From positions 1 through 53,959 of the IMG/VR virus record IMGVR_UViG_3300015371_000049: 53,959 nucleotides of DNA; one strand, written 5' to 3'. The stretch is from a virus. A program made the position numbers and the translations under genes. Below the pieces are notes generated by a model. That model saw only the letters and a program-made list of their open reading frames with translations, had not been told where the DNA came from and did not search any database. Below are positions 33,080 to 33,228 of the stretch, piece by piece; position 1 is the stretch's first letter; each line of letters opens with the position of its first letter.

Positions 33080-33228
33080 GGCTCCAGGCGGGCCCGTGAT
33101 CAAGTCGAGGACGGTACGTAGGTGCTCTGCCAACTGAGCTACCGCACAAGTGCGGGCGGGACTCGAACCCGCGACCACCCGCTTAAGAGGCGAAGTAACC
33201 GTTCTCTGCGCACCGGGCGCCTGAAGCC
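33080..33228 (-). ncRNA. yrlA: Y-RNA-like unit 2 (Y2), YrlA type with permuted tRNA-like module
   Basis: About 149 nt. The ends pair (GGCTTCAGGCG with CGCCTGGAGCC, one G-T pair) and enclose GGTGCGCAG and ACTTGATCAC. Inside comes ACGGTTAC/GTACCGT, then a tRNA-like body in permuted order. First is a loop CTCTTAA with CGC/GCG flanks (33192-33180), then a T arm GCGGG-TTCGAGT-CCCGC (33172-33156). Next an acceptor-like hairpin CCGCAC-TT-GTGCGG is closed by a two-base loop (33155-33142). Last is a D arm GCTC-AGTTGGCA-GAGC (33139-33124). Closed acceptor, T arm before D arm and outer Ro-binding stem are the known YrlA architecture. An ordinary tRNA scan would miss or misread it. Confidence 0.88.

Follow-up and report, generated by a model that had tools for sequence, protein, structure and literature searches.

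In an actinobacteriophage-like virus, a Y-RNA encoded next to a gene for a Ro/TROVE RNA-binding protein almost certainly contains a complete, circularly permuted tRNA mimic with a split anticodon arm, as judged from comparative sequence analysis. The window, by which we mean the whole 53,959-nt stretch of DNA that was analysed, is a virus record with portal, large terminase, capsid and tape-measure genes. The initial annotation had recognised in this Y-RNA (Y2) a YrlA-like module permuted relative to tRNA, which is borne out by an Rfam YrlA match and by a T arm and closed acceptor stem that precede the D arm.

The Ro locus and the anatomy of Y2

As at YrlA loci, a Ro/TROVE gene adjoins Y2; it lies directly downstream of three Y-RNA-like elements, Y1, Y2 and Y3, all on the minus strand. 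Y1 and Y2 have CCGGTGCGCAG, CGGTTACTTC and CTTGATCACGG in common, Y3 carries the shared motifs CCCGGTGCGCAG and GATCACGG, and the CCGGTGCGCAG and GATCACGG motifs are common to all three. Y2 has a tRNA-like part, and none was recognisable in the folds of Y1 or Y3. The features of the locus are:

31294-32919, minus strand: Ro/TROVE RNA-binding protein gene (PF05731, E 1.1e-17; actinophage homologues are annotated Ro-like)
32949-33065, minus strand: Y3, Y-RNA-like, without a recognisable tRNA-like module (fold)
33079-33229, minus strand: Y2, whole Y-RNA (fold, and a motif common to Y1 and Y3; ends of the transcript deduced from the stem)
33231-33303, minus strand: Y1, Y-RNA-like, without a tRNA-like module (fold)
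27068-27970, minus strand: RlaP-family RNA-repair nucleotidyltransferase (PF10127, E 1.5e-33)

The RlaP-family gene thus shares a phage with Ro, and such genes occur in 7 of 50 related phage records: 1 of 25 that carry a split module, 5 of 15 that have Ro but lack a split module, and 1 of 10 others. RtcB is found in 2 of the 50. We considered a coupling of split modules to RNA repair genes and rejected it, there being no specific co-occurrence with RlaP or RtcB across these 50 records. A DUF5131 protein (PF07505, E 7e-90) is encoded near the end of the phage record, at 51947-53131 on the minus strand.

In its fold, Y2 has a putative Ro-binding lower stem, CGGCTTCAGGCGCCCG / CGGGCCCGCCTGGAGCCG, and internal helices GAG/CTC and CGGU/ACCG. 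Its module, in tRNA numbering, is composed as follows:

33119-33198, minus strand: whole tRNA-like module with the split anticodon arm (UUACUUC ... ACCUA), from the hold-out covariance model R2
33180-33192, minus strand: upstream part of the anticodon arm, CGC 29-31, loop CUCUUAA 32-38, GCG 39-41 (compensatory changes at 30-40 and 31-39 in relatives)
33178-33179, minus strand: nucleotides 42-43 (GG), pairing with 28-27 downstream of the D arm (covariation)
33173-33177, minus strand: variable loop UGGUC, 44-48 (tRNA register, 5-nt variable loop)
33156-33172, minus strand: T arm GCGGG-UUCGAGU-CCCGC, 49-65 (Rfam match and covariation)
33142-33155, minus strand: closed acceptor stem CCGCAC-UU-GUGCGG, 66-71 / 2-7 (all six pairs covary in relatives)
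33124-33139, minus strand: D arm, 10-25, RNA GCUC-AGUUGGCA-GAGC, DNA GCTC-AGTTGGCA-GAGC (Rfam match and covariation)
33121-33123, minus strand: A26 C27 C28, completing the anticodon stem (pairing and covariation)

The order along Y2 is therefore 29-31, 32-38, 39-43 (GCGGG), 44-48, 49-65, 66-71, UU, 2-7, UA (8-9), 10-25 and 26-28; put into normal tRNA order, the module reads GUGCGGUAGCUCAGUUGGCAGAGCACCCGCCUCUUAAGCGGGUGGUCGCGGGUUCGAGUCCCGCCCGCAC. C27 and C28 pair with G43 and G42, giving an anticodon stem of five Watson-Crick pairs, CCCGC/GCGGG, built from one continuous strand and two separate ones, and the Y-RNA body exits between nucleotides 28 and 29. The strings named in the initial annotation were all found on the minus strand, CGC-CTCTTAA-GCG at 33192-33180, the T arm at 33172-33156, CCGCAC-TT-GTGCGG at 33155-33142 and the D arm at 33139-33124. 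Its interval, 33124-33192, does hold the module but stops 3 nt short of A26 C27 C28 (33123-33121).

Comparative evidence for the split anticodon arm

Rfam YrlA (RF02553) matched 33179-33121 with 47.9 bits (E 1.8e-9), short of the 69 bits that Rfam sets as its gathering score; nine related records also fell below that score, the best at 50.7 bits. The YrlA consensus has no anticodon arm, and the relatives, when aligned to it, leave most of its stem 13-19/90-96 unpaired. The Rfam tRNA match at Y2 scored 23.6 bits. Single-sequence minimum free energy (MFE) folding prefers another fold of the module, by 4 kcal/mol, that is not a cloverleaf, so we turned to comparative evidence.

Relatives were collected through Ro homologues in viral contigs and phage records, together with a pattern scan of viral and genome contigs in which GGTTACTTC and the T loop were fixed and the 10-40 nt between them left free; the results apply among the matches listed. 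This yielded 208 modules, of which 177 remained once redundancy was removed. A hairpin with a 7-nt loop in the tRNA register was present in 80 of the 177 modules among the matches listed, compared with a shuffle mean of 15.0 and maximum of 28. Nearly all other combinations of loop and variable loop in these 177 modules stayed near the null; the lesser excesses came mainly from a class with a four-nucleotide variable loop and from the same hairpin read one pair further out, and in the main class variable-loop registers of 4 and 6 nt gave no excess. U33 was found in 74 of the 80 hairpin-positive modules vs 40 of the 97 others, again among the matches listed.

We then counted pairs in 71 modules among the matches listed that share one fixed motif spacing and were picked regardless of pairing. 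Pairs 27-43, 28-42, 30-40 and 31-39 form in 69, 68, 68 and 65 of the 71 (shuffle means 42, 39, 36 and 29), and U33 is present in 61. Pair 29-41 (58/71) carries no covariation signal because position 29 is an invariant C. Across relatives, both sides changed with the pair kept at 28-42 in 33 sequences and at 27-43 in 17. RNAalifold did not find the anticodon arm unaided on alignment A2, and we therefore counted the named structure instead. On 68 aligned sequences, one row of which is Y2, 97.1% of cells are paired and covariation reaches 0.726, compared with 0.182 in shuffled alignments and no more than 0.144 in slid registers; none of 500 shuffles was as high. A covariance model built from 58 relatives, with the window left out, gave one match in the window, at 33198-33119, with 94.1 bits (E 2e-21). 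That Y2 is an ordinary YrlA whose anticodon-like hairpin is a chance alignment in a module folding otherwise, as its MFE fold might suggest, is the most improbable reading of all, already contradicted by this covariation, by the collapse in slid registers and by the largely unpaired YrlA stem.

Among the matches listed, split modules occur in Streptomyces, Lentzea, Amycolatopsis, Nocardia, Paenibacillus, Clostridia and Bacteroidota, and in phages of Gordonia, Mycobacterium, Microbacterium, Brevundimonas and Xanthomonas. A phage-only feature is thereby rejected, chromosomal copies being found in Actinomycetota, Paenibacillus, Clostridia and Bacteroidota. Within the stretch fetched, 86 of 97 split-module loci among the matches listed have a Ro gene, mostly within a few hundred nucleotides downstream on the same strand. 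Since model matches below about 50 bits include tandem tRNA pairs, only strong full-length matches are meaningful for genome counts; these were found in about a dozen of 118 Actinomycetes genomes. Covariation shows that phages and several bacterial phyla have conserved the split anticodon arm, which is therefore an old family trait and not a recent capture.

Streptomycete chromosomes, for example at L164, L189, L205 and L226, encode a canonical YrlA next to a split-anticodon one, both upstream of Ro. In phages of Brevundimonas and Xanthomonas (L323, L324), the model matches more than once ahead of the Ro gene, which points to arrays of several tRNA mimics outside Actinobacteria. GenBank records that label such modules tRNA genes include VanLee, Myrna, Kikimora, 10KY502B, SM23 and Big4. 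The following annotated tRNAs overlap matches of the split-module model, and several phage 'tRNA genes' in public records are thus misannotated Y-RNA modules:

L023, 2204-2275: Arg
L025, 2298-2371: Ser
L026, 2484-2550: Asn
L321, 1183-1254: Asp
L323, 1191-1265: Ser
L324, 1185-1252: Thr
L325, 1185-1252: Ser

A whole-tRNA mimic with a fast-changing anticodon

Once re-permuted, Y2 has the full arm set and follows the tRNA loop rules, and, with one acceptor pair, a discriminator and CCA added, ARAGORN calls it tRNA-Lys(CUU). Both the tRNA similarity after re-permuting and the CUU-type anticodon-like loop that the initial annotation had read are thus upheld, although the call is weak evidence for the split stem, as ARAGORN also accepted controls whose strands had been swapped and rejected only the one with a shuffled arm.

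Similarity to tRNAs extends across the modules. Positions 36-37 obey the tRNA rule in 67 of 74 modules among the matches listed (null mean 45, maximum 56), and the loop heptamer is identical to a real tRNA loop of these loci in 46 of 74 (column-shuffle mean 32, maximum 39). Among the same 74 module loops, at least 27 different anticodons are represented. A GTG-type D arm goes with a four-nucleotide variable loop in 15 of 16 modules among the matches listed, and a GCTC-type D arm with a five-nucleotide one in 72 of 87 (Fisher p 3e-10 for the coupling), which is the same coupling as in real tRNAs. In a second subclass (L022 1637, L117, L184 5283, L202 1070), which has a GTG-type D arm and a four-nucleotide variable loop, all five pairs of the anticodon hairpin come from the upstream strand alone, and the loops are Glu-, Cys- or Gln-like. 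This subclass may be joined to the Y-RNA body in another way than by the 28/29 split.

In contrast to the loop, the body gives no sign of a particular parent. With the anticodon loop masked, the nearest tRNAs to Y2 are those for Asp, Lys, Arg, Ala and Pro, Lys not being favoured, and the masked body predicts the amino acid of the anticodon in just 6 of 77 modules (chance 4.3), compared with 121 of 211 real tRNAs. We therefore rejected the proposal that the module derives recently from a tRNA, perhaps the host tRNA-Lys, which the age of the arm also contradicts. The modules are predicted whole-tRNA mimics, not recent copies of particular tRNAs.

The anticodon itself changes quickly. We compared 52 near-identical pairs among the matches listed, which differ at no more than 6 of the 55 sites considered outside the loop. 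Position 34 differs in 52% of them, 35 in 58%, 36 in 31% and 37 in 35%, with position 33 differing in 0% and 38 in 2%. By comparison, 25% of acceptor-loop sites and 27% of D-loop sites differ. A38 is nearly invariant in the modules. Gordonia phage VanLee has the Arg-like loop CUUCUAA and L022 the His-like loop AUGUGGA, yet outside the loop a single compared site separates the two. These comparisons are a strong hint, not proof, of diversifying pressure on the anticodon, because a Streptomyces cluster has a large weight among the 52 pairs, which are not independent; the fast change at 34-35 could instead be relaxed constraint. A pattern in which C36 (GNN codons) is never used held at first in the main class and was dropped, given C36 loops in other subclasses and in phage Myrna.

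Possible functions and relation to known systems

What the tRNA-like module of bacterial Y-RNAs does is a question on which the anticodon arm bears directly. The permuted layout, with its new ends at 28/29, keeps a free and correctly built anticodon arm, as covariation shows. The conserved arm, U33, the tRNA-like 36-37 and the fast anticodon together indicate a partner that reads whole tRNAs including the anticodon, and suggest that Y2 imitates tRNAs to something reading it. This leaves fewer candidates, and the question can be tested with a three-base swap.

We infer, giving it an even chance, that Y2 acts as a Ro-bound decoy or bait for anticodon-reading tRNA-binding factors. The phage-encoded Ro would hold Y2 by the lower stem and present an uncharged tRNA look-alike to a protein that reads the tRNA core and the anticodon loop. 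The partner would most likely be an anticodon nuclease or a similar host factor, with Y2 as its decoy or bait, and the anticodon would change quickly because the thing fooled or caught changes. Anticodon nucleases fit a fast-changing anticodon. Since chromosomal copies exist, a purely phage anti-defence role would be insufficient. The lack of a specific association with RlaP or RtcB, the better MFE of another fold and the uncleaved Salmonella YrlA described below also weigh against the decoy reading. More tentatively, it is possible that the Ro-Y RNPs of many phages and bacteria form a diversifying family of decoys or sensors, each anticodon tuned to a different opponent such as an anticodon-reading nuclease or a tRNA-targeting factor.

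The main rival partners are the enzymes of position 37. U36-A37 and G36-G37 are the usual determinants of t6A37 and m1G37, and the 36-37 dinucleotides of the modules are mostly UA or GG, with A38 nearly always following. The anticodon arm might accordingly make the Y-RNA a substrate or sink for these enzymes (the t6A complex at U36-A37, TrmD at G36-G37), with modification or sequestration being what matters. This would extend the known modification of YrlA by DusA and TruB (PMC8394870). The proposal in the initial annotation that tRNA enzymes might bind or modify the module is plausible. Yet it leaves the hypervariable 34-35 unexplained, and C36 or A36 loops of other subclasses (CUUUCAC, CUCUCAC, CUGCAAA; CUGUCAA in Myrna) lack the determinants, so that we regard it as unlikely.

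Rather unlikely, too, is that the arm is a leftover of tRNA ancestry, a structural plug at a three-way junction whose loop has no partner. Loop sequences do vary widely, and 34-35 could be unconstrained, but U33, A38 and the 36-37 rule are kept, and the rate of change at 34-35 is about double that in the acceptor and D loops. Moreover, canonical YrlAs without the arm share loci such as the streptomycete ones with split ones, which makes the arm dispensable for a Y-RNA.

It is very improbable that Y2 is a tRNA gene in permuted or disguised form, or a tandem tRNA pair that has decayed, and is processed into a working tRNA. Tandem tRNA genes do give the same order of 3' half before 5' half and a weak model match (for example a pair in G001, 49.5 bits), and the GenBank labels described above take the modules for tRNA genes. 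However, the acceptor strands of Y2 pair across the UU loop, leaving no space for a CCA, a discriminator or a leader, so that Y2 lacks the normal-order cloverleaf with free acceptor end and CCA of a tRNA and, its natural tRNA ends being sealed by that loop, would not be chargeable. There is no anticodon arm downstream of the D arm, ARAGORN calls no tRNA in native order, and the element is framed by putative Ro-binding Y-RNA stems and the Ro gene.

Permuted tRNA genes of algae and archaea have their 3' part upstream of the 5' part; the linker that separates their acceptor strands can be removed, and they mature into tRNA. Y2 shares this order; its linker is just UU, with no maturation route visible. 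To tRNA-Lys(CUU) and tRNAs at large (RF00005), Y2 is alike in its four arms, U33, 5-bp anticodon stem, 5-nt variable loop and the D-arm/variable-loop coupling; it differs in being permuted, sealed at the acceptor, devoid of CCA and borne on a Y-RNA, with a body that is not specifically Lys-like.

Phage tRNAs have been proposed to counter host anticodon nucleases (PMC10264068) and placed in the conflict with them (PMC11555353). Like these, Y2 is phage-encoded, has a tRNA-like anticodon loop and could meet a tRNA-cleaving host defence. Unlike these functional tRNAs, which replace depleted ones, it would be unchargeable and putatively held by Ro. That the tRNA-like domain of YrlA could competitively inhibit an anticodon nuclease has been suggested, and Salmonella YrlA was not cleaved by that nuclease (PMC7790460).

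The closest relative is YrlA itself (RF02553; Salmonella PDB 6CU1), with which Y2 shares the adjoining Ro gene, the permuted layout, and the T arm and closed acceptor stem ahead of the D arm. It was already known that the Y-RNA structure 6CU1 superposes on tRNA in a circularly permuted way (PMC11472068). In the available excerpts of the literature on YrlA and tRNA an anticodon arm is unmentioned, and the primary YrlA papers may describe one. YrlA is described as mimicking the D, T and acceptor arms only and as tethering Ro to PNPase (PMC8394870). In known YrlA, the stem below the D/T junction runs on uninterrupted where an anticodon arm would be; in Y2 this stem is split and the anticodon arm is complete. 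In contrast to the three-arm mimic of known YrlA, the outer module of Y2 is thus, by prediction, a complete tRNA mimic.
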